Shown here in pieces: positions 1-18,802 of a DNA stretch of 31,928 bases. The translations under genes and the position numbers were made by a program. The notes below the pieces were generated by a model. That model saw only the letters and a program-made list of their open reading frames with translations, was not told the DNA's origin and did not search any database. Numbering within the stretch: position 1 is the stretch's first letter; each line of letters opens with the position of its first letter. The DNA is from a virus, in IMG/VR virus record IMGVR_UViG_3300027671_000004, positions 1-31,928 of that record; one strand, 5' to 3'.

Positions 1-432
1 CGTCGCCAGTCCCGCCGCGCAACCCGCCGCCGCTTTAAGCTCACCTTCTGTAATGTAAAGATCGACCTTGACATCACTTGCCATTTCTTCCCAAGATCGT
101 TTGAACAGCGGCGGTAAGTATACCTCGTTAAGAGTGTTGGCTGCTTGAGCATAGCGTTGGGGCTTCTTCAGCTGCCCGGCGAAGCCGGGAAGAGGTTCCA
201 GATAACGAACCCGGAAGAACTGAGTCGGCTTACCTTTAAGATCAAAATAGGGGATATACAGGGATCCGCAAGCAGCAAGTCCGGTCCCCAATGCGGCAGT
301 CTGGTCGGCATTGAGAGCGCGGTACTTAAGCCTCTTTGCGATCTTGTCGGACAGACCACTTGATCGCCACTTGGCCTGTGCGAGTTGTTGGATTGTCGTG
401 CGCTCATCCTCAGCCACCTTTCGCAGAGCCAT
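1..432 (-). CDS. Primase/helicase-type protein with DUF3854-like segment (3' part outside window)
   Basis: Reading leftward from the ATG at 432, the frame stays open for 144 codons to the window edge, so only the N-terminal part is present. After a basic, helical start, a block reads SLYIPYFDLKGKPTQFFRVRY, then a YLPPL motif, then LYITEGELKAAAG. This pattern (FDxxG, RVRY, PP, ITEGExKA) is typical of the DUF3854 domain, a TOPRIM-like fold in phage and plasmid primase/helicase proteins. The expected role is priming or unwinding of phage DNA. It is the most distal leftward gene here, which fits an early replication gene. Family assignment is by motif recognition; the catalytic C-terminal part cannot be seen. 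A GGGGA stretch about 10 bases upstream is a weak ribosome binding site. Confidence 0.72.
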   Translation of the reverse strand, partial: MALRKVAEDERTTIQQLAQAKWRSSGLSDKIAKRLKYRALNADQTAALGTGLAACGSLYIPYFDLKGKPTQFFRVRYLEPLPGFAGQLKKPQRYAQAANTLNEVYLPPLFKRSWEEMASDVKVDLYITEGELKAAAGCAAGLAT

Positions 433-466
433 GCGCTGGAGTCCCCAGGTTGGAGGGAGGGGAGCG

Positions 467-496
467 AACCTACTCGCCTAGCAGCTAGCTGGTCAA
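467..496 (-). promoter_or_regulatory. Weak promoter candidate before the primase-type gene
   Basis: On the minus strand a TTGACC (491-496) is followed after 18 bases by TAGGTT (467-472). It lies in the 97-base gap between the HTH gene and the primase-type gene. The spacer contains CTAGCAGCTAGCTGG, which is partly palindromic but is not the CATAGC-type operator seen elsewhere. Box matches are moderate, so this is a candidate only. Confidence 0.3.
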
Positions 497-529
497 GCGC
501 ACAAGCGGTAGTAGTGAGCGACGTACCGA

Positions 530-727
530 CTACACCCCGTCGAGTAGCTCGCTGAGAGTGAGACCAAAGGCCCTGGCCAGCCGGCGCATCACGATCCACC
601 CGGGGTAGCGGTCGCCGCTCTCCAACATAGAGATCCCAGAGGTACCCAGGTGGCAGAGGGTGCCCAGGTGGGTCTGGGTCCAGCCCTTTGCCTCCCGCAG
701 TTCTCGCAGCCGTTCCGCGAAGGTCAA
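530..727 (-). CDS. XRE-family helix-turn-helix protein (65 aa)
   Basis: A small DNA-binding protein of the XRE/Cro-CI type. The visible core is LRELREAKGWTQTHLGTLCHL, a turn, then GISMLESGDRYPGWIVMRRLARAFGLTLSELL, which gives the usual five-helix fold. I chose the TTG at 727 because it overlaps the TGA of the upstream gene as TTGA and has AGGAG about 6 bases upstream. The longer ATG-started frame would run back through most of the upstream gene. It is the last gene of the coupled operon that begins at 2767 and comes before the primase-type gene. It is a candidate regulator of the palindromic operators, but the sequence alone cannot prove that. Confidence 0.75.
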   Translation of the reverse strand: MTFAERLRELREAKGWTQTHLGTLCHLGTSGISMLESGDRYPGWIVMRRLARAFGLTLSELLDGV

Positions 728-918
728 AGCAGTTCTCCTACTTTGTACTGACGGATGGGCATATCCAAGATCGGCCACCCATTCTGCCGGTTGAGTTGAA
801 TCCGCGCTCCCCGCGCCGCGCCCAAAGAGGTGCCGATGTAGTGAACACCCCAAACCTCGGGACAGTCATCCGGCGCGAACCACACCAACCACACCCTAGT
901 CAATTTCTCTTTTCTCAT
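724..918 (-). CDS. Small hypothetical protein (64 aa)
   Basis: Not recognised. The protein starts MRKEKLTRVWLVWFAPDDCPEVWGVHYIG and has a mixed, tryptophan-rich, soluble-looking composition. The start ATG at 918 is supported by GGAGG nine bases upstream. The gene overlaps the end of the preceding membrane-protein gene by 23 bases and ends in a 4-base TTGA overlap with the HTH gene that follows, so translation is probably coupled. It sits between a membrane peptide and a DNA-binding protein in the promoter-2807 operon. Confidence 0.6.
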   Translation of the reverse strand: MRKEKLTRVWLVWFAPDDCPEVWGVHYIGTSLGAARGARIQLNRQNGWPILDMPIRQYKVGELL

Positions 919-1102
919 CTAGTTCTCGCCTCCACTTGTCAGCAATTCGAACGAACGCCCCTGTCAGCAAAACCATCAGCAGCGCAACCCACAGTCGATC
1001 AATTCTACGTAGATAGGGGAAGATTTTTCCACGCAGTATGTTGTCAAACTCGTTGGACGCCCGGTCAAATTGTATCAGCAGTTCTACCGAAGGTACGCTC
1101 AT
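896..1102 (-). CDS. Single-span membrane protein (68 aa)
   Basis: A short protein with one clear hydrophobic segment, LWVALLMVLLTGAFVRIA, around residues 37-54, followed by a charged tail (DKWRRELDEKREID). The start at 1102 is chosen because ATG overlaps the upstream TGA as ATGA; a longer in-frame start would sit inside the preceding HTH gene. A membrane peptide between two HTH genes is unusual. It could be an early host-membrane or exclusion protein, but no family is recognised. Confidence 0.6.
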   Translation of the reverse strand: MSVPSVELLIQFDRASNEFDNILRGKIFPYLRRIDRLWVALLMVLLTGAFVRIADKWRRELDEKREID

Positions 1103-1338
1103 TTCGATCCCCCATTGAAGAGTGCTTCCCACTTCACCTTCAATGCCTTGGCCAGCTTCCGGCTGGTCGCCAGGCTAGGCTCCCGCACTCCCGACTCCAG
1201 CTGGGCGATGTAGGCTTGTGCCAGTCCACCGCACATCTCCCCCAGCTGCTCCTGCCCCAGCTTGCGCTCTTCGCGCAGGGCGCGGAGCGTCTGACCAAAA
1301 GCTATCGAGTTCCCCGTCCGCCTTTTCTTGCCTGTCAT
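1099..1338 (-). CDS. XRE-family helix-turn-helix protein (79 aa)
   Basis: A second XRE-type DNA-binding protein. A basic N-terminal arm (MTGKKRRTGNS) comes before the HTH core: GQTLRALREERKLGQEQLGEMC, a turn, AYIAQLESGVREPSLATSRKLAKALKVKWEALF. The SGxREPS turn is typical of the family. The start at 1338 overlaps the stop of the upstream gene by four bases, and its own stop overlaps the next start as ATGA. Together with the HTH protein at 530-727, it is one of two obvious repressor candidates for the CATAGC-N5-GCTATG operators. It is too short to carry a cleavage or dimerisation domain like that of lambda CI. Confidence 0.75.
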   Translation of the reverse strand: MTGKKRRTGNSIAFGQTLRALREERKLGQEQLGEMCGGLAQAYIAQLESGVREPSLATSRKLAKALKVKWEALFNGGSK

Positions 1339-2153
1339 GTTGGCTCCATGGCGGTGGCGATTTCTTCGCCCGCCTCAGTCAGTCGATAGTTCTTATCTAT
1401 CCACCCCAACCGAAGGGCTGCCCAGATCTTCAGTCGATGGCTGCTCTCCTCCCCACCCAGCTTCTCCGCCATCGCGTGGGAGAGACTAGCTCGATTCCAC
1501 ACCTCATCCGCTCGGTCCGCTCCTCGGTCCACCGGGTGGTCAGCAAGGAAGTGCACCACCGCCGCCCCCAGACCTTTCATGGCTTTGAGATCTGTCTGCA
1601 CTCCCTCCAGTGGAGCTGGATCGTAATCCTCCGGTACATAGACGCCAGCTGCCACTCGCTTGAGCAGCCCACGCCTCTCGGCTTCAGCGAAGCGATGAGC
1701 CAGGTTCTGCACCCCGGGTACGGTCAGGTACTTTCGTGCCTCCTGCCACTTCACCGGACGCCCGTAGTGCTGGAAAGCGATGACGACGGCCCGCGCCGCG
1801 TCCAGCGTCGCCATCGGCTGCACTCGTGCTCCCTTGAGGTAGGGCAGGGGAATCCCCTCTTCCTTAAGCGCCGGTTTAGGCAGTGCAGGTGTGCCCTCCT
1901 TACCCATCAGCCTGCGCCCCAGCGCCCGCTCGAATTCGCGTTGGGCAGCGTCTTCGTCCACCTCGGTCAGCAATTCATAAGACGGCTCTGGACGACGTGG
2001 CAGCGACGGTGACGGAGCCAGCTTGGGTGGAGAGACCTTAGGTGGTGCAGGTGCAGCTGGAATGAGTCCGGCCAGTGCTCGCACTTCCTCCAAGGTGCCC
2101 ACCTCAATCTCCACTCCGTTGATCTTTACCTTATAAGACATGGCTTCCCTCAT
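1335..2153 (-). CDS. Hypothetical protein with Pro-rich N-terminus and two winged-helix-like segments
   Basis: About 272 residues, family not recognised. Residues 5-30 form a small beta-type start (MSYKVKINGVEIEVGTLEEV), then a proline-rich linker (about 32-58). Around residues 118-178 and 190-268 are two compact regions, each ending in a strand-turn-strand (for example RGLLKRVAAGVYVPE and LGWIDKNYRLTEAGEEI), which look like winged-helix DNA-binding units. This reading is inference. The ATG at 2153 overlaps the upstream stop as ATGA; the ATG at 2141 (residue 5) with AGGG upstream is an equally good start. It is the second gene of the promoter-2807 operon and is followed directly by an HTH gene. 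Confidence 0.6.
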   Translation of the reverse strand: MREAMSYKVKINGVEIEVGTLEEVRALAGLIPAAPAPPKVSPPKLAPSPSLPRRPEPSYELLTEVDEDAAQREFERALGRRLMGKEGTPALPKPALKEEGIPLPYLKGARVQPMATLDAARAVVIAFQHYGRPVKWQEARKYLTVPGVQNLAHRFAEAERRGLLKRVAAGVYVPEDYDPAPLEGVQTDLKAMKGLGAAVVHFLADHPVDRGADRADEVWNRASLSHAMAEKLGGEESSHRLKIWAALRLGWIDKNYRLTEAGEEIATAMEPT

Positions 2154-2767
2154 GCCCCCTTCACGGGTTTAATAAGCTCTCCGTTCAGATCGCGACCGTT
2201 GGCCCTGAGCACAGCGATGACATCGGACTCGACGTAATTATTGCCAGGCCCAGCTGCTTCCTCTGCCATCTGCCTGGCCTTGTTGAGCGCCACCCCCGCC
2301 CCATCCAGCATGTCGATCTTGACGACCTTCTTAGGATGGACTACCGCCTTCTTTCTCAGCTTGGGCGGTGTCGGCTTGAGTGTAGGCGTGGAGCGCGCGG
2401 GAGTCGAACCCGCGTTCTCGGCTTGAAGGGCCGGAGTCTTGACCGCTGGACGAGCGCTCCCCTTCTTCATCTTCGCCTTCTTCGGGCGGGGCGGACCTTT
2501 GCGCAGCTGAGTCCTGGGGACCGGGGCGATGCCCTGCGCGATGGCGTCGGTCTTGACCTTCTCCCGCCCCTTCAGTTTGAGCGGTGCGTAAGGACGGAAC
2601 TTGGCCCCCGATTGCTTGCGTCGCTCCGCGTACTTGTGAGGAGCCTGGGTGCGGCCCCACCAGATGGCTACGATAGCCTCCTCGGGTTCCTCCAGTCCCT
2701 TCTCTTCGGCCTGCTCCTCCAGCCGCTCGTACTGCGCCTTGGTCACTTCCACTCTCAGTGTCGGCAT
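2150..2767 (-). CDS. RHH-like protein whose linker is encoded by a tRNA-like sequence (205 aa)
   Basis: Three parts are visible. Residues 1-84 (TLRVEVTKAQYERLEE, AIVAIWWGR, AKFRPYAP, GIAPV) are clearly homologous to the complete 89-residue protein at 6965-7234. The start, a short strand followed by two helices, resembles a ribbon-helix-helix DNA-binding fold. Residues 85-145 are a Lys/Pro-rich linker, and residues 103-126 of it are encoded by the tRNA-like sequence at 2390-2460. Residues 146-205 form a separate C-terminal unit of unknown function. The ATG at 2767 has GGGAGG seven bases upstream and lies behind the promoter at 2807-2835. It is the first gene of a coupled operon running to 530. 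Function is unknown; DNA binding is inferred. Confidence 0.65.
   Translation of the reverse strand: MPTLRVEVTKAQYERLEEQAEEKGLEEPEEAIVAIWWGRTQAPHKYAERRKQSGAKFRPYAPLKLKGREKVKTDAIAQGIAPVPRTQLRKGPPRPKKAKMKKGSARPAVKTPALQAENAGSTPARSTPTLKPTPPKLRKKAVVHPKKVVKIDMLDGAGVALNKARQMAEEAAGPGNNYVESDVIAVLRANGRDLNGELIKPVKGA
2390..2460 (-). tRNA. tRNA-Glu(TTC)-like sequence inside a protein gene, same strand
   Basis: The reverse complement folds as a 71-base cloverleaf. The acceptor stem GGAGCGC/GCGCTCC has seven perfect pairs. The D arm has A14, G18G19 and A21. The T arm has five perfect pairs (GCGGG/CCCGC) with loop TTCGACT. The anticodon stem is 5'-CCGGC/GCCGA, with one C-A mismatch at the outer pair. The loop CCTTCAA gives anticodon TTC, with C instead of the near-universal U at position 33. 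No 3' CCA is encoded; the following bases are ACGC. The sequence lies in sense orientation inside the 2150-2767 gene. Either it is a functional tRNA cut from a messenger, or a decayed copy now serving as coding linker. Confidence 0.6.
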
Positions 2768-2782
2768 CTCATCCTCCCATGC

Positions 2783-2819
2783 GGTGTGCTATGTCACCGA
2801 AGCGATAACATAGCACACC
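2783..2819. repeat. 12-bp perfect inverted repeat in the leader of the RHH-like gene
   Basis: GGTGTGCTATGT at 2783-2794 and its exact complement ACATAGCACACC at 2808-2819 are separated by 13 bases. The right arm is the left half of the operator at 2808-2826, so the left arm adds a third GCTATGT half-site downstream of the promoter. It could form a leader hairpin or give a regulator an extra half-site to bind. Confidence 0.7.
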
Positions 2820-2835
2820 GCTATGTGACTGTCAA
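2807..2835 (-). promoter_or_regulatory. Leftward promoter with nested palindromic operator
   Basis: On the minus strand TTGACA (2830-2835), a 17-base spacer and TATGTT (2807-2812) make a good sigma70-like promoter. The palindrome ACATAGC-ACACC-GCTATGT (2808-2826) fills the spacer and part of the -10 box. The stop codon of the gene at 2832-3239 is the TGA inside this TTGACA. It drives the operon 2767 to 530. Confidence 0.75.
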
Positions 2836-3239
2836 GCGTCGAACTTCAGTCCGAAGTCAGTCGCCAGTCCTTGAAGTTCCTTTTTCCACGAACTCACTTC
2901 ACGATCATCATGAATGCGCTGAAGCTCAAGGAGCAGGGCAAAGACGGGAACCTTCTCTCTTCGTACTAATGGAGCGATGTAATCCTTGTTCTTGTCTTCT
3001 TCGACCGGCACGCCGGATGCGCGCAGAGCATCCTGGATCACCGGGTTGCGTGCGCTCTTCCCCTCGAACTCCGGCCGGTAGAACTCATCGAGGATGAGCG
3101 CTCCTACCGGGCACTTGCGCCCGCTTCCACTGGGGTCCCGGTAGAAACAGACTCTCGGTCGGTCCGGGTCATTGGCCTTGGCGTTCTGCCTGAGCAGATG
3201 CTCCTTAGCCTTGGTGAATACCTCTTGGATCGTCATCAT
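2832..3239 (-). CDS. Phage protein of unknown function with KCPVGALI motif (about 135 aa)
   Basis: The protein starts MMTIQEVFTKAKEHLLRQNAKA and continues VCFYRDPSGSGRKCPVGALILDEFY. This resembles a common uncharacterised phage/bacterial protein with a TxQEVFxKxxxHLLxQ start and a CxYR...KCxVGxLI core. No function is known to me. The start is placed at 3239 (3236 is equally possible, giving one residue less) because a GGGGAAGG ribosome binding site lies just upstream; a longer frame to 3290 would extend into the -10 box of its own promoter at 3281-3309. The gene forms a one-gene cassette, and its TGA stop is embedded in the next promoter. Confidence 0.65.
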   Translation of the reverse strand: MMTIQEVFTKAKEHLLRQNAKANDPDRPRVCFYRDPSGSGRKCPVGALILDEFYRPEFEGKSARNPVIQDALRASGVPVEEDKNKDYIAPLVRREKVPVFALLLELQRIHDDREVSSWKKELQGLATDFGLKFDA

Positions 3240-3280
3240 TTCGTCCTTCCCCTTTTCTGCCACGTCATGTGGCATGCTAT

Positions 3281-3309
3281 CACATAGCACACAGCTATGT
3301 TTACGTCAA
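3281..3309 (-). promoter_or_regulatory. Leftward promoter with nested palindromic operator
   Basis: TTGACG (3304-3309), a 17-base spacer and TATGTG (3281-3286) on the minus strand. The operator ACATAGC-ACACA-GCTATGT lies at 3282-3300. The upstream gene ends in TAA at 3301-3303, next to the -35 box. It serves the gene at 2832-3239. Confidence 0.7.
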
Positions 3310-3501
3310 GTCACCATTGCGCATCCGCTTGAAGGCTTCCTTGAGCGCATTCTCGATGAGCCGCTCAGCCATCTGTTGATACTGGACCTTGGAGAACTTC
3401 TGCCTGCCGGCGAACCGTGCCCGCTCCACCGCCCGCACGTAGGCTTCCCGGCGTATCAGGTCGGAGAGCGCCGCCGCCGCGTCGGGGCGATAGGCGGTCA
3501 T
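3301..3501 (-). CDS. Small hypothetical protein (66 aa)
   Basis: A highly charged, Arg/Ala-rich helical protein (MTAYRPDAAAALSDLIRREAYVRAVERARF, then KEAFKRMRNGDLT). No family is recognised. Its ATG at 3501 shares one base with the TGA of the upstream gene (TGATG), so the two are probably translated as a pair from the promoter at 3726-3753. Confidence 0.55.
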   Translation of the reverse strand: MTAYRPDAAAALSDLIRREAYVRAVERARFAGRQKFSKVQYQQMAERLIENALKEAFKRMRNGDLT

Positions 3502-3686
3502 CAGCAGCTTTGCGCAGTCACCGACACCGTTTCTCCCAGGTTGGTCACCGCTCGCAGCCCTTCCCGCTGCATGGTCACCGCCAGCTTGGCGATGTCAGCT
3601 GCGATCTCCTTGTGCCCCTTGTTGCTGGCTTGGTACTCGCGGAGCAAAGAACTGACCTTCTCCCACTTGTGCGTCCTCAGTTTCAT
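3501..3686 (-). CDS. Small hypothetical protein (61 aa)
   Basis: The protein starts MKLRTHKWEKVSSLLREYQASNKG and looks helical and soluble. No family is recognised. The ATG at 3686 has GAAGGGAAGG upstream and lies about 40 bases below the -10 box of the operator-bearing promoter at 3726-3753, so it is the first gene of a two-gene cassette. Confidence 0.55.
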   Translation of the reverse strand: MKLRTHKWEKVSSLLREYQASNKGHKEIAADIAKLAVTMQREGLRAVTNLGETVSVTAQSC

Positions 3687-3725
3687 GTTTTCCTTCCCTT
3701 CCGCCGTCTGATACGGCTATGCTAT

Positions 3726-3753
3726 CACATAGCACACAGCCATGCGATGTCAA
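3726..3753 (-). promoter_or_regulatory. Leftward promoter with nested palindromic operator
   Basis: TTGACA (3748-3753), a 16-base spacer and TATGTG (3726-3731). The operator ACATAGC-ACACA-GCCATGC (3727-3745) is slightly degenerate in its right half. The TGA stop of the gene at 3750-4124 lies within TTGACA. Confidence 0.7.
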
Positions 3754-4124
3754 GCTGCTCGTCTGCGATTCTCTCCTGCATGCGGGTCGAAGATGCGTCT
3801 CCCCTGGTAGAGGAGTCCTTCGTCCACCTCGTGCGCCATCGCTCTCTGCAAGCCATTACGAATTCTTTGCCCGATGTTGTCCATGCTCAGATCGTATGGA
3901 CCAATCTTGATGTGGTGCTGAAATCCTTCTGGGCGAATAGGCAACGACCCATCCTCTCGATCTGGCACCTTGGAGAAATACAATAAGATCTCCACCGTTC
4001 CATCCGGTTGCCCGAAAATGTAATCCCTTCCTTTCGTTGCTGAGATCTCCAATCCCAGGGCTTTGAGGGAACCATTCCCAACGCTGAACTCGCCTACGAA
4101 CTTGATCGCCTCATCTATCGTCAT
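3750..4124 (-). CDS. Hypothetical protein (124 aa)
   Basis: Starts MTIDEAIKFVGEFSVGNG and contains a long middle with KGRDYIFGQPDGTVEILLYFSKVP and a C-terminal NIGQRIRNGLQRAMAHEVDEGLLYQG. No family is recognised; the fold looks alpha/beta and soluble. The start at 4124 is chosen because its ATG overlaps the upstream TGA as ATGA. The 45 extra bases to 4169 would lie wholly inside the upstream gene. It is the last gene of the operon from promoter 5137-5164. Confidence 0.6.
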   Translation of the reverse strand: MTIDEAIKFVGEFSVGNGSLKALGLEISATKGRDYIFGQPDGTVEILLYFSKVPDREDGSLPIRPEGFQHHIKIGPYDLSMDNIGQRIRNGLQRAMAHEVDEGLLYQGRRIFDPHAGENRRRAA

Positions 4125-4450
4125 TGTCCTTCCCTCCATCTGATCGAAATATAGTATCCCTTGTCGCACTCCTCGTCATTCTCCGGACAGTCCACCTCGT
4201 GCACGCTGGTGGTCATCCATTTGGGGACGTTGACGGTGGGGCGATGCTCCATCTCGATCTCGAGAAGCATCGCCTCCACCTCTTCAGTCGTTCCTGCCTG
4301 CTCAGCGACCTGCTCCAGGGCGTCGTCCAGGGCGTCGAAGTAGCTCGCGCCTACCCCGGTAACGGCATGCTTAAAAGTCGTGCCTGCCGTGCCTACCCCG
4401 GCGAAATACTGGGCGTACTCGGAGCCGTAATCGAGCAGTTCCCACTTCAT
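4121..4450 (-). CDS. Hypothetical acidic protein (109 aa)
   Basis: Starts MKWELLDYGSEYAQYFAGVGTAGTTFKHAVTGVG, then an acidic helix (DALDDALEQVAEQAGTTEEVEAMLLEIE) and a tail with CPENDEECDKGYYISIRWREG. No family is recognised. The ATG at 4450 overlaps the previous stop as ATGA, and its own stop overlaps the next start in the same way, so it is an internal cistron of a coupled four-gene operon. Confidence 0.6.
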   Translation of the reverse strand: MKWELLDYGSEYAQYFAGVGTAGTTFKHAVTGVGASYFDALDDALEQVAEQAGTTEEVEAMLLEIEMEHRPTVNVPKWMTTSVHEVDCPENDEECDKGYYISIRWREGQ

Positions 4451-4641
4451 GGCATGTCCTCCTTGCATTTGATGCAGAAGCGGATGCTGCCCAGCTGAAC
4501 GATGTAGTGCACCCCAGCCCGTTGGCAGTGCGCCAGCGGGTGGGGCTTGGTCTGCTTGCGGTAGCGCTCGGCCATCCGCTCCTCGAAAGTCTCGCGGAGC
4601 TTGACCGGCGCCTGACTCTTGCTTTTGCTCATCTTGCTCAC
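4447..4641 (-). CDS. Small zinc-ribbon-like protein (64 aa)
   Basis: A basic N-terminus (MSKMSKSKSQAPVKLRETFEERMAERYRKQ) is followed by HPLAHCQRAGVHYI and RFCIKCKEDMP. The His/Cys group and the CxxC near the end suggest a small zinc-binding ribbon; this is inferred from spacing only. The start is GTG at 4641, overlapping the upstream TGA as GTGA; the ATG at 4632 is an alternative. Confidence 0.5.
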   Translation of the reverse strand: MSKMSKSKSQAPVKLRETFEERMAERYRKQTKPHPLAHCQRAGVHYIVQLGSIRFCIKCKEDMP

Positions 4642-5114
4642 GGCTTCACCACCACCAGCTGCCCGGCGAGGGGGAGCGCCGGAATGGCCACTCCCTCTTC
4701 GGTCCGCTCGCCCACGATGGGCGGGAGCGGGGTGGCAGTCTCCCGCACCGTCCGCTTGCGCGGCGCACCCTTCGTGCGCTCGAACACGCCCACGTAGATC
4801 TGGAACTGGCCTTCCTCGATGATCCCGAAACCGTATCCGGGATTCTCGCGAAGTAGCTCCTTCACCCGCTCCTTGTAGCCGCGCACGGTCAGGGCAAGCT
4901 CATCCTCAGCCCCGAACCCGCTTTTGTCTACAAAGAGATCACGTCCCTCCAGGTGCCGCCAGCCCTTGGGCGCGTAGTCGCCAAGGTTGGGAACCTTGGC
5001 GAACTGCTCGTCCACTTCCTGCTCGCTGGCGAAAGTCTGGGGCTTGCGCCCCAGACGCCTGGCCTTGCGCCCTGCTTCCTTTGAGAGTGCAACAATCGTT
5101 TCGATGCTCATCAT
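4638..5114 (-). CDS. Hypothetical protein (about 158 aa), first gene of a four-gene operon
   Basis: Starts MMSIETIVALSKEAGRKARRLGRKPQTFASEQEVDEQF and continues through LGDYAPKGWRHLEGRDLFVDKSGFG to a beta-rich region (YGFGIIEEGQFQIYVGVFERT) and a basic, proline-containing tail. It is not recognised. The start at 5114 (or 5111) has a strong AAAGGAGG upstream and lies downstream of the promoter at 5137-5164. A longer frame starting at 5147 would begin inside that promoter and is rejected. Confidence 0.6.
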   Translation of the reverse strand: MMSIETIVALSKEAGRKARRLGRKPQTFASEQEVDEQFAKVPNLGDYAPKGWRHLEGRDLFVDKSGFGAEDELALTVRGYKERVKELLRENPGYGFGIIEEGQFQIYVGVFERTKGAPRKRTVRETATPLPPIVGERTEEGVAIPALPLAGQLVVVKP

Positions 5115-5136
5115 GTTTCCGTTCCTCCTTTGCGAG

Positions 5137-5164
5137 AGCATAGCCATTGGCTATGCTCTGTCAA
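5137..5164 (-). promoter_or_regulatory. Leftward promoter with near-perfect palindromic operator
   Basis: TTGACA (5159-5164), a 16-base spacer and TATGCT (5137-5142) on the minus strand. The palindrome GCATAGC-CATTG-GCTATGC (5138-5156), extended by one A/T pair, fills the space between the boxes. The TGA stop of the gene at 5161-5397 is part of the TTGACA. It drives the operon 5114 to 3750. Confidence 0.78.
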
Positions 5165-5397
5165 ATGACAATCTTCGCCTCGATGAGGGCAATCCGGAAT
5201 GCGCCCGTCCAGCGATTAAAGGTGAAGCGCGTACACTTGCAGCCGCCCTCCAGGCAGCGCCCGTGTCCGTTGTCCACCAAGCCGGGAACGGTTCCCTCGT
5301 GCTGGGTCTCGCTCCCGTCTCCGACGTGCTCGCACTCACAGACCGACTTCGGTCCCCGCCAAGCTGCCACCACATCTCGCTTCTCGTTGTAGCTCAT
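5161..5397 (-). CDS. Cys/His-rich small protein, probable zinc binder (78 aa)
   Basis: After MSYNEKRDVVAAWRGPK the sequence carries CECEHVGDG, TQHEGTVPG, NGHGRC and GGCKCTRFTFNRWTG. The six cysteines (in CxC and C-x4-CxC arrangements) and several histidines suggest a metal-binding fold, but no named family is recognised. The ATG at 5397 overlaps the upstream TGA as ATGA, and its stop lies inside the next promoter. Confidence 0.6.
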   Translation of the reverse strand: MSYNEKRDVVAAWRGPKSVCECEHVGDGSETQHEGTVPGLVDNGHGRCLEGGCKCTRFTFNRWTGAFRIALIEAKIVI

Positions 5398-5609
5398 GCG
5401 TCTCCTCCCTCGACGGTCAAGCCGTCGTTCCTGATTCCTTCGATGAGATCGTCAACGTATCGGTGCTCCACTGAGAAGCGGGGACCGAGCCATTGCCAAG
5501 GCTCCAGCGGTACGTTCTGCCGGACCCACTTTTTCGCCTGGGGCGTGCGCGGCTCAATCATGAAGATCGTGCCACCACCACCCACTCTGAAGTCCACTTG
5601 CTTTGCCAT
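5394..5609 (-). CDS. Small hypothetical protein (71 aa)
   Basis: Starts MAKQVDFRVGGGGTIFMIEPRTPQAKKWVRQNVPLEPWQWLG. The IFMIEPRTPQAKKWVRQNV stretch and the following RYVDDLIEGIRNDGL resemble small phage proteins of unknown function, but I cannot name a family. An AGGGGAAGG ribosome binding site precedes the ATG at 5609. The 74-base gap upstream shows no CATAGC operator, so it is probably co-transcribed with the gene at 5684-5911. Confidence 0.55.
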   Translation of the reverse strand: MAKQVDFRVGGGGTIFMIEPRTPQAKKWVRQNVPLEPWQWLGPRFSVEHRYVDDLIEGIRNDGLTVEGGDA

Positions 5610-5683
5610 GCCTGCCTTCCCCTTTCAGTTAAGTTTGGCGCGTGTTGTTCACCCGGGCATGCGCGCCGCCCGCCCGTCTGCGC

Positions 5684-5911
5684 TTAGGTGCGCAGGAACT
5701 CGTCAATCCTCTGGGAGAGCTTGAGTCGGCGGGGCCGCACTCGTGCATGCGATAGCTCCTCGCTGGCAAGTTCGCCCTGTAGCTCCTTCAAGAACTCCAG
5801 CGCATGCAGGCCGTGACTCAGAGCGGCGAAGGCTCGTGCGTCTCCCCCGTCGCCGCTTTCCCTGATGTCGTCCAGCCACTTTCGTGCGTGCCAGATGTCG
5901 CCCGCTTTCAT
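5684..5911 (-). CDS. Small hypothetical protein (75 aa)
   Basis: Starts MKAGDIWHARKWLDDIRESGDGGDARAFAALSHGLHALEFLKE, a helical soluble protein of unknown function. The ATG at 5911 is preceded by AGGGAGGG and overlaps the upstream TGA as ATGA. The longer frame to 5944 would begin inside the promoter at 5934-5961 and is rejected. Confidence 0.6.
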   Translation of the reverse strand: MKAGDIWHARKWLDDIRESGDGGDARAFAALSHGLHALEFLKELQGELASEELSHARVRPRRLKLSQRIDEFLRT

Positions 5912-6171
5912 CGTCGCTCCCTCCCTGTCAGACACCATAGCCATGGGCTATGCGATGTCAAGACCAACGCACCCGCCGGCATGTCGCGGTCCGACTCTTC
6001 TGCGATGGAATTGACGGCGAGGACGGGGGCGGGGCTGAGGTGCACGCGGCACAATCCGCGTTCCAGGCAGATGGCATGCAACAGAGCGCGCGAGAGTGCG
6101 TGGGTGATACCGTTGTGTTGGACAGCTGCGCGGTAGGTGGCGCGGAGGATTCCCAGCTTGCTGGTCTGCAT
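5908..6171 (-). CDS. Hypothetical protein (87 aa), first leftward gene
   Basis: Starts MQTSKLGILRATYRAAVQHNGITHALSRALLHAICLERGLC. It has an AAGGGAAGG ribosome binding site before the ATG at 6171, GC-rich third codon positions and a coupled ATGA stop. It is the gene closest to the control region, behind the tandem operators at 6223-6276. Its last 18 residues are read across the promoter/operator at 5934-5961, unlike the other cassettes, where coding stops at the -35 box. A different frame ending at the TTGACA of that promoter has poor composition. Function is unknown. Confidence 0.5.
   Translation of the reverse strand: MQTSKLGILRATYRAAVQHNGITHALSRALLHAICLERGLCRVHLSPAPVLAVNSIAEESDRDMPAGALVLTSHSPWLWCLTGRERR
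5934..5961 (-). promoter_or_regulatory. Leftward promoter with nested palindromic operator
   Basis: TTGACA (5956-5961), a 16-base spacer and TATGGT (5934-5939). The operator CCATAGC-CATGG-GCTATGC lies at 5935-5953. It is placed to drive 5911 and the two genes after it, and lies inside the 3' end of the preceding gene. Confidence 0.7.
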
Positions 6172-6222
6172 TTTGTTTTCCTTCCCTTTGAGGGGGCGAA
6201 CGCCCCGCACCATGGACGTGCA

Positions 6223-6276
6223 AGATAGCTACCAGCTATGAGATGGTGATTCATGACGCATAGCTACAAGCTATGA
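6223..6276. promoter_or_regulatory. Two tandem palindromic operators before the first leftward gene
   Basis: AGATAGC-TACCA-GCTATGA (6223-6241) and GCATAGC-TACAA-GCTATGA (6258-6276) have centres 35 bases apart. No good TTGACA stands at the usual distance, so the promoter here is weaker or uses another factor. The spacing of about three and a half helical turns suggests co-operative binding, which is inference. Confidence 0.6.
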
Positions 6277-6281
6277 GCTAC

Positions 6282-6343
6282 TGCGCAGTGGGATGCGCAC
6301 CTGATCCGCGTAAAATAGTGCGCAGTGCGCAAACATTTGCGCA
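6282..6343. repeat. Cluster of five TGCGCA motifs
   Basis: TGCGCA occurs at 6282, 6294, 6319, 6326 and 6338, five times in 62 bases. It is a palindromic hexamer, so each copy is a symmetric site. The cluster borders the AT-rich inverted-repeat core and could be an array of initiator or regulator sites. Confidence 0.6.
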
Positions 6344-6346
6344 GAT

Positions 6347-6574
6347 GTGCCAAACATAGCAAATACAGAAGCCAAAATACTGTAGGGTCTCGGAGTTGCT
6401 GGGGGAAAACAGCAATACGGAAAAACGCCACAAGTTCTATATGGGAGAGTGTGTATATATTGAGTATGTGAGTATGCGCGTATGAGAATATTAAAGAAAA
6501 CTGTATTGCCGTATTCTCCGTGTAAAATCAATACCCTACAGTTTTTTACCTCGGTGTTTTGCTATGTTTGGCAC
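6347..6574. repeat. 41-base imperfect inverted repeat around an AT-rich core
   Basis: The arm at 6347-6387 matches the reverse complement of 6534-6574. The outer 17 bases are identical (GTGCCAAACATAGCAAA) and so are the inner 8 (CTGTAGGG); the middle 16 share 7 positions. Each arm holds one ACATAGC operator half-site (6354-6360 and 6561-6567). Inside, GCAATAC at 6412-6418 recurs inverted at 6503-6509. The core (about 6421-6500) is rich in TATAT, GTATG and AATATT. Confidence 0.75.
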
Positions 6575-6680
6575 GTCTGAGACGCTGCGCGCTCCCTCTG
6601 TCCCCCCTCCGCCGTCCCTCTGAGCGCAGTTGTGAGCGCGGGTCAGCGCACCGAGTGAATCGCTCATTTCTCCAGTGAAA

Positions 6681-6699
6681 ACATAGCGTGTAGCTATGT
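6681..6699. promoter_or_regulatory. Palindromic operator on the rightward side
   Basis: ACATAGC-GTGTA-GCTATGT, flanked by one more A/T pair. It is the only complete copy on the rightward side of the AT-rich core. No convincing -35 box stands next to it on either strand. It lies about 200 bases before the rightward promoter candidate. Confidence 0.65.
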
Positions 6700-6740
6700 T
6701 ATCCGACGGAAGGTCTCTGCTCTCAGGGCAAGCATGCTTT

Positions 6741-6794
6741 CCCCGGGCGACGGGGTAGCCCGGGGTTTGTGCCCGGCCGGGGCGGCCGGGCTAC
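6741..6794. repeat. Two GC-rich hairpins, terminator-like or REP-like
   Basis: Hairpin 1: CCCCGGGC (6741-6748), a 9-base loop, GCCCGGGG (6758-6765), then TTTGT. Hairpin 2: GCCCGGCC (6771-6778), a 5-base loop, GGCCGGGC (6784-6791). A larger outer pairing of GGTAGCCCGG with CCGGGCTACC encloses the second. The short T run after hairpin 1 would make only a weak rightward terminator; the nested form looks more like a mobile extragenic palindrome. Confidence 0.6.
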
Positions 6795-6879
6795 CGCACC
6801 AAAGATCTGCTCCCATTCACTGACTTCACTCTACGTGAATTCCACGGCGCTGCTCTGCGTACTGTCACCTGTGACCCAC

Positions 6880-6899
6880 TTGACACATTTGACTACAAT
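6880..6899 (+). promoter_or_regulatory. Rightward promoter candidate for the right arm
   Basis: TTGACA at 6880-6885 and TACAAT (one mismatch to TATAAT) at 6894-6899 are present, but only 8 bases separate them, so they cannot be a pair. TACAAT has a weak GTGACC-like -35, while TTGACA pairs with a poor -10. The region is AT-richer and directly precedes the first rightward gene, but the exact promoter is uncertain. Confidence 0.35.
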
Positions 6900-6964
6900 G
6901 ACCAAAGTCTCATAGAGTTTCACTCTGGGTCCCATCGGAGGATGGGCTGAAGAGGGGATGTAAC

Positions 6965-7234
6965 ATGAAGAAGCTACAGATCGAATTGTCCGCACGTCAG
7001 CACAGGGTCGCTCAGGACTACGCCAAGCTCCACGGTACTTCGGTGGAGACGGCGGTGGTGAAGATCTGGTGGGGCCGGGTCTGCGCTCTCTCCAAGTACC
7101 GCCAGCGCATCCACCAGGCCCACGCCAAGTTCCGCCCTTACGCCCCTCGCCAGATGGACGAGCGGGTCCGCCGCCGCATCAAGCGGACTGCGGTTCGGGC
7201 CGGGATTGCTCCGGTTAACGGGGTGCGGCGGTGA
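6965..7234 (+). CDS. RHH-like protein, paralogue of the left-arm gene (89 aa)
   Basis: The protein matches residues 1-84 of the 205-residue protein at 2150-2767. Shared blocks are IWWGR, KY, AKFRPYAP and GIAPV in the same order and spacing. The start KKLQIELSARQHRVAQDYAKLHG followed by a second helix suggests a ribbon-helix-helix fold, in which the first strand contacts DNA; this is inference. The C-terminal half is very basic (DERVRRRIKRTAVRAG). The ATG at 6965 has GAGGGG eight bases upstream. It is the first gene of the rightward arm, a place typical of a regulator. Confidence 0.65.
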   Translation: MKKLQIELSARQHRVAQDYAKLHGTSVETAVVKIWWGRVCALSKYRQRIHQAHAKFRPYAPRQMDERVRRRIKRTAVRAGIAPVNGVRR

Positions 7235-18001: not shown

Positions 18002-18802
18002 ATGCCGGCGGACAGTGTAGAAGTCATCTGCAACATGGCACTTGGCTATGCCGGGATACGGACTCGCATCAACTCCATTGAGGATGCGTCCGCGTCTGCC
18101 CAGGCATGCAAGGTGTACTACGCCCAGTACCGTGACGATCTATTGAACGACTATCGATGGCCGTTCGCCACTCATCGGGCTGATTTGGTACCGTACACCG
18201 GGGTGGCTTGGACGGCGGCGCAGACGTTCAACCTTGGAGACCTTACTCTGTTCGGTGTGACGGTCTACCGCTCGCTTCAGGCGGCGAACCTGAACAACCA
18301 ACCCAATGTCTCACCGGCTTTCTGGTTCCAGGTGACTCGGGATGGCTGGGCTTTCGCCTGCCCGCTCCCGCCCGACTTTCTGGATGAGCAGTGGGTGTAC
18401 AACAAGCCGACCCTCACCAACACTGCTGTGATCAATAGCTTTCAGCCTCCCAAGTTCAGTCCTATCCGCAACCCCCGCCCCGAAGAGCGGGTACCGTTCG
18501 CCATCGAGGATGCCAACGATGGGTCAGGGAACCAGATTCTTCTCACTGATGCAGACAAGCCCACGCTGGTCTACACTGCTCAGATCACTAACCCAAGGTC
18601 GTTCTCCGGCCCCTTTACCAAGGCGCTGGCCTGGCGGCTGGCCAAGGCTCTTGTTCCCGCCTTGCGAGCAGACATCAAAGCGGCGGAATGGATCAACAAA
18701 GCGGCGGAAATGGAAGTGCGAGAATCGGTAGCAACAGAACAGCGCGGAATCCGGGAAGACGTGGAGCCCGCCAGCGAATTTGAGGCGGCGAGGGAGTCGT
18801 GA
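18002..18802 (+). CDS. Tail tubular protein A, T7 gp11-like, with carbohydrate-binding-like insert (266 aa)
   Basis: Forms the ring that joins the portal to the nozzle. The start (SVEVICNMALGYAGIRTRINSIEDASASAQACKVYYAQYRDDLLNDYRWPFATHRADL) is the standard tail tubular A pattern: NxALxxLG, then AxxCxxxYxxxRDxLLxxxxWxFA. Residues 66-109 (YTGVAWTAAQTFNLGDLTLFGVTVYRSL, ending SPAFW) interrupt the family pattern and look like a CBM5/12-type carbohydrate-binding module. The C-terminal helices (FTKALAWRLAKALVPAL, then IKAAEWINKAAEMEVRES) are again family-like. GGAGG precedes the ATG. Confidence 0.88.
   Translation: MPADSVEVICNMALGYAGIRTRINSIEDASASAQACKVYYAQYRDDLLNDYRWPFATHRADLVPYTGVAWTAAQTFNLGDLTLFGVTVYRSLQAANLNNQPNVSPAFWFQVTRDGWAFACPLPPDFLDEQWVYNKPTLTNTAVINSFQPPKFSPIRNPRPEERVPFAIEDANDGSGNQILLTDADKPTLVYTAQITNPRSFSGPFTKALAWRLAKALVPALRADIKAAEWINKAAEMEVRESVATEQRGIREDVEPASEFEAARES

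Follow-up and report, generated by a model that had tools for sequence, protein, structure and literature searches.

Palindromic operator-like sites nested in early promoters of an uncultured phage suggest a regulon under a small phage-encoded repressor

The virus record IMGVR_UViG_3300027671_000004 raises the question of why one palindrome recurs throughout its early region, and which protein might read it. The window analysed here is the whole of that record (31,928 bases), which is classed as linear, as fragments often are, and is not closely matched by any record of the named phage collection. From about 7.7 kb onward the genes for terminase, portal, major head and tail proteins are read rightward, and these predicted products assign the phage to the podoviruses with a head-tail connector of T7 type. 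Small genes occupy the leftward strand from position 6171 to the left edge, where the last gene, which weakly matches primase/helicase, is cut off by the end of the record; non-coding DNA makes up 18% of the left arm (positions 1-6964). A preliminary description had placed eight palindromes of the form ACATAGC-N5-GCTATGT across the control region and the leftward early arm, and all were located, each with 0-2 mismatches and a centre of constantly 5 bases:

Operator 1, 2808-2826: ACATAGC-ACACC-GCTATGT, a perfect 7-5-7 palindrome; gene 2150-2767 starts 41 nt downstream
Operator 2, 3282-3300: a perfect palindrome preceding gene 2832-3236
Operator 3, 3727-3745: two mismatches, preceding genes 3501-3686 and 3301-3501
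Operator 4, 5138-5156: GCATAGC-N5-GCTATGC, preceding genes 4638-5111 to 3750-4124
Operator 5, 5935-5953: preceding gene 5684-5911
Operator 6, 6223-6241: gene 5958-6171 starts 52 nt downstream
Operator 7, 6258-6276: 35 bp upstream of operator 6, without promoter boxes of its own
Operator 8, 6681-6699: a perfect palindrome in the control region, on its rightward side

The eight sites are confirmed as genuine and far beyond chance. With up to two mismatches allowed, positions 1-6964 hold eight sites versus a mean of 0.003 and a maximum of 1 in 300 dinucleotide shuffles, which bears out the earlier impression of a regulon-like set, and the nine sites of the whole window were reached by none of 100 whole-window shuffles. 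A weight matrix built from the eight sites with the centre masked gives nine sites in the window a score of at least 20.5 bits and the next best one 5.8, a gap of 15 bits to the remaining matches, and in a motif-free scan CATAGC-5-GCTATG is the largest family of perfect inverted repeats in the window (6 copies, versus at most 2 for each independent family). The ninth match (18033-18051, ACATGGCACTTGGCTATGC, 2 mismatches), whose matrix score equals that of 3727, corrects the earlier statement that the structural genes contain none: it lies within tail-protein gene 18002-18802, 31 bp into the coding sequence, where it encodes M-A-L-G-Y-A and has no promoter, and it is probably a coding coincidence.

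All eight operators of the arm fall in gaps between gene calls, and operators 1-6 stand 24-52 nt upstream of a leftward start codon. The sequence of the centre is variable (ACACC, ACACA, CATTG, CATGG, TACCA, TACAA, GTGTA) and the 30-nt flanks are just 13-42% identical between sites, so that selection on both half-sites is the simple explanation of the family. Operators 2808, 3282 and 3727 have their centre and near flanks in common, enough to be old duplicates, and some copies may thus have arisen by duplication, which would favour reading the sites as promoter cassettes, mobile or duplicated, or as chance occurrences, in either case lacking a common regulator; but symmetry has been retained where centres and flanks have diverged, so the sites are not merely recent copies, and together with the shuffled expectation this makes such an origin highly improbable.

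Five of the operators were said to be nested between -35 and -10 boxes 16 or 17 bases apart. Exactly five are, with boxes at each:

Promoter 1, 2835-2807, minus strand: TTGACA-17-TATGTT with an extended -10, heading the six-gene operon 2767-530 that includes both XRE genes
Promoter 2, 3309-3281, leftward: TTGACG-17-TATGTG, operator 2 nested
Promoter 3, 3753-3726, leftward: TTGACA-16-TATGTG, operator 3 nested
Promoter 4, 5164-5137, leftward: TTGACA-16-TATGCT, operator 4 nested
Promoter 5, 5961-5934, leftward: TTGACA-16-TATGGT, operator 5 nested

The operator takes up the spacer of each of these promoters, and the -10 box coincides with the operator's right half. TTGAC-N17/18-TATG occurs five times in the arm (versus 0.05 expected from shuffles) and nowhere in the window outside it, and every TTGAC(A/G)-16/17-TATG promoter of the arm (5/5) carries an operator. 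The other three operators (6223, 6258 and 6681) have no recognisable promoter: TATCTT is placed as a -10 at operator 6, where the -35 is poor and TTGAC is absent, and operator 8 lacks a -35 box on both strands. Five leftward transcription units, probably six, start at an operator, which upholds the proposal that many early cassettes are controlled at once, except that two of the eight sites are promoterless; sites 6223, 6258 and 6681 need a role other than that of a nested promoter operator. The leader of the XRE operon also contains an extra half-site, GCTATGT (2787-2793), which pairs with operator 1 as a long inverted repeat (2781-2821).

The nesting supports the proposal that a bound protein would interfere directly with the promoter, while the remodelling suggested alongside it is less likely with spacers of normal length. 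Sites between -35 and -10 boxes are like those of MerR, and the poor -35 of 6223, with 6258 upstream of it, could also suit a MerR-like activator or remodeller in place of a repressor. Such a protein is nonetheless improbable here, since MerR promoters have stretched spacers of 19-20 bp, whereas those of the window are 16-17 bp with near-consensus -35 boxes, and none of the proteins scanned looked like a MerR-type protein. With such boxes and spacers the promoters are predicted to be active unaided, and an occluding repressor therefore fits best.

Site 2808 precedes six genes that overlap end to end (2150-2767, 1335-2153, 1099-1338, 896-1132, 724-918 and 530-727) and thus constitute one operon from promoter 2808, which puts two HTH genes under one site. 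The candidate regulators are:

XRE protein, 1099-1338, minus strand: 79 aa, HTH_3, leading candidate
XRE protein, 530-727, minus strand: 65 aa, HTH_31, second candidate
RHH-like protein, 2150-2767, minus strand: C-terminal extension, opening the XRE operon, third candidate
RHH-like protein, 6965-7234, plus strand: 89 aa, first rightward gene, third candidate

Both XRE proteins have clear Cro/C1-type HTH domains by Pfam match (52.1 bits for 1099-1338 and 51.8 bits for 530-727, versus cut-offs of 23 and 27). The solved proteins nearest to 1099-1338 are the controller proteins C.AhdI and C.BclI, and the one nearest to 530-727 is the DdrO DNA-binding domain. A predicted model of 1335-2153 (pLDDT 48) was set aside. 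The N-terminal part of 2150-2767 is 41% identical to 6965-7234, and the two are paralogues; a tRNA-Glu gene (anticodon TTC, 2388-2460) lies inside ORF 2150-2767 in the same direction, the ORF staying open across it, and this part is absent from the paralogue.

A distance of 11 bp, about one turn of DNA, separates the centres of the two ATAGC half-sites, and this spacing suits a dimer on one DNA face. It suits RHH tetramers, such as Arc, as well, and the readers of the same regulon might be the two RHH-like paralogues, protein 6965-7234 and, through its N-terminal part, protein 2150-2767, acting as paired dimers on the half-sites, Arc-style; one paralogue opens the rightward arm beside 6681, and the other follows 2808. 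The RHH-like label derives from sub-threshold matches to ParD (15.2 bits for 6965-7234, versus a cut-off of 27.3), NikA-like and DUF6290 families and from a predicted model of 6965-7234 in which two helices are placed as in RHH, but the fold is not established at the best Pfam E value (0.03, full protein) and the low pLDDT of the model (55). Moreover, upstream of 6965 there are four copies of TGAC at exact 9-bp steps (6872-6902), overlapping a promoter-like rightward GTGACC-17-TACAAT, and this array resembles a tandem RHH target more than the palindromes do. The RHH-like paralogues are thus rather unlikely readers of the palindrome.

Relatives give little comparison. By protein (terminase, portal, RHH-like, XRE) the relatives of the window are distant or none, with terminase at most 48% and portal 35-38% identical. 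The motif search of the full genome and its relatives that the preliminary description had proposed returned the nine sites in the window, and the palindrome (at most one core mismatch) in none of nine terminase or portal relatives; no relative with the same operator regulon was found. Two XRE relatives (L048 and L049) are 35-40% identical, with TAGC-N5-GCTA absent nearby. In viral and bacterial collections the promoter-nested operator yields scattered single matches in approximately the number expected by chance, except in L023 and L027. The first, L023, has two TTGACA-17-TATGAT promoters (2026-2052 and 3667-3693) with the identical core CATAGCCATGTGCTATG, apparently upstream of tRNA-rich stretches. 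The second, a viral contig of high GC, has three TAGC-N5-GCTA sites (7364, 8420 and 8445, versus 0.07-0.13 expected), of which one adjoins the start of an XRE-type protein of CI-like length and layout, picked out by eye, and two precede the next gene. The L027 regulator has a differing recognition helix, as judged by eye, and the contig offers an independent hint that XRE repressors may use this half-site and spacing.

The binder could also be a repressor encoded in a missing left part of the genome, beyond the window, or a regulator of the host put to use by the phage. In favour of this, the record is a fragment whose left edge cuts through an open primase/helicase-like gene, and 15 TTGACA-nested copies occur among 84,980 bacterial genomes of many phyla (L029-L043, TTGACA-N2-4-CATAGC-N5-GCTATG). 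Fourteen of the 15 have a 4-base gap, which gives the 17-bp promoter spacing, a preference that may only mirror promoter structure. Against an outside binder, the window itself has two HTH genes in an operon headed by one of the sites, and the bacterial matches are single in each genome and selected by the search pattern itself, so that this origin of the regulator appears quite unlikely. The likeliest binder would be an XRE protein, ahead of the RHH-like proteins and of an unseen or host protein, with 1099-1338 preferred to 530-727.

The operators are probably bound, as we infer, by one phage-encoded dimeric HTH repressor, most likely a small XRE protein, that would occlude RNA polymerase and regulate its own synthesis. 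One dimer would contact the two ATAGC half-sites, and at the five early promoters, where the operator overlaps the -10, a bound dimer would exclude RNA polymerase. If either XRE protein binds, site 2808, at the head of the operon of both, would create negative feedback. Operators 6223, 6258 and 6681, on either side of the control region, would either regulate the major promoters that point outward or stop transcripts issuing from them.

The control region (6.2-6.7 kb) contains, beyond what the preliminary description listed, an imperfect inverted repeat, 73% complementary, with an AT-rich centre and its axis at 6460.5:

Left arm, 6342-6418: 77 nt, with half-site ACATAGC at 6354
Right arm, 6503-6579: 77 nt, with half-site GCTATGT at 6561

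The longest block identical in both arms (17 nt, GTGCCAAACATAGCAAA) includes half an operator and, outward from the centre, reads TTTGCTATGTTTGGCAC, which gives each arm an extended -10, TGCTATGTT. The repeat looks like a divergent promoter pair or a replication origin. Downstream of the left outward -10 come operators 6 and 7, and downstream of the right outward -10 comes operator 8. The idea that 6223-6699 is a single 477-bp palindrome centred on 6461 was rejected, as a gapless mirror test backs the 77-nt arms only and the outer sites are half a base off the axis. A cluster of TGCGCA/GTGCGC palindromes occupies 6282-6345, between operator 7 and the inverted repeat.

A bolder and more speculative arrangement is a plug-in module, in which each early cassette would bring its own promoter with a nested operator, newcomers would enter the regulon as they arrive, and a stand-alone XRE protein of 65-79 aa would act as the sole timer through negative feedback, around a mirror-symmetric divergent promoter region. 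The wiring plan is known from other phages, and the motif and host lineage look new. The novelty claimed earlier for the motif holds within the searches made: it has no match in the relatives or the nearest named-phage records, and it is not met in the P1 and cluster A papers cited below. If the repressor model is true, the phage offers a compact pair of operator and repressor, together with several natural promoters graded in strength, that could be used as orthogonal parts, and dispersed palindromic control of early cassettes is present in an uncultured phage lineage with T7-like heads, which suggests a route by which mosaic early genes come under common control.

Compared with known systems, the window has no lambda-type CI/Cro arrangement of a divergent repressor pair, shared operator cluster and S24 repressor; its XRE genes share one operon and one direction and encode only 65 and 79 aa, although a repressor beyond the window could conceivably form part of a lambda-type switch. 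In the Streptomyces phage phiC31, conserved inverted repeats are palindromic repressor sites that overlap many early promoters; its operator sequence differs from that of the window, and its repressor is a larger protein. Controller (C) proteins are small single-domain XRE dimers, as the window XRE proteins would also be, but their C-boxes consist of inverted repeats in pairs, with AGTC/GACT at the core (PMC5282649), whereas the window has single sites with the half-site ATAGC, and no restriction-modification genes were recognised among the proteins scanned. Cluster A mycobacteriophages (L5, Bxb1) have dispersed operators or stoperators, some within promoters and some outside (PMC6550527, PMC9283540), and the sites of the window are likewise dispersed and only partly inside promoters; unlike stoperators, which are 13-bp, asymmetric, monomer-bound, mostly outside promoters and oriented with transcription, they are palindromic and mostly in promoters. 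Phage P1 has 22 C1 operators, 17-bp and asymmetric (ATTGCTCTAATAAATTT), dispersed over its genome (PMC8546580). The window, with its 19-bp 7-5-7 palindromes, departs from the P1 type in operator form but resembles it in having dispersed operators through which one regulator, here a putative one, would serve many promoters. One feature of dispersed-operator systems, a single motif at several early promoters, is present in the window as five promoter-nested sites.
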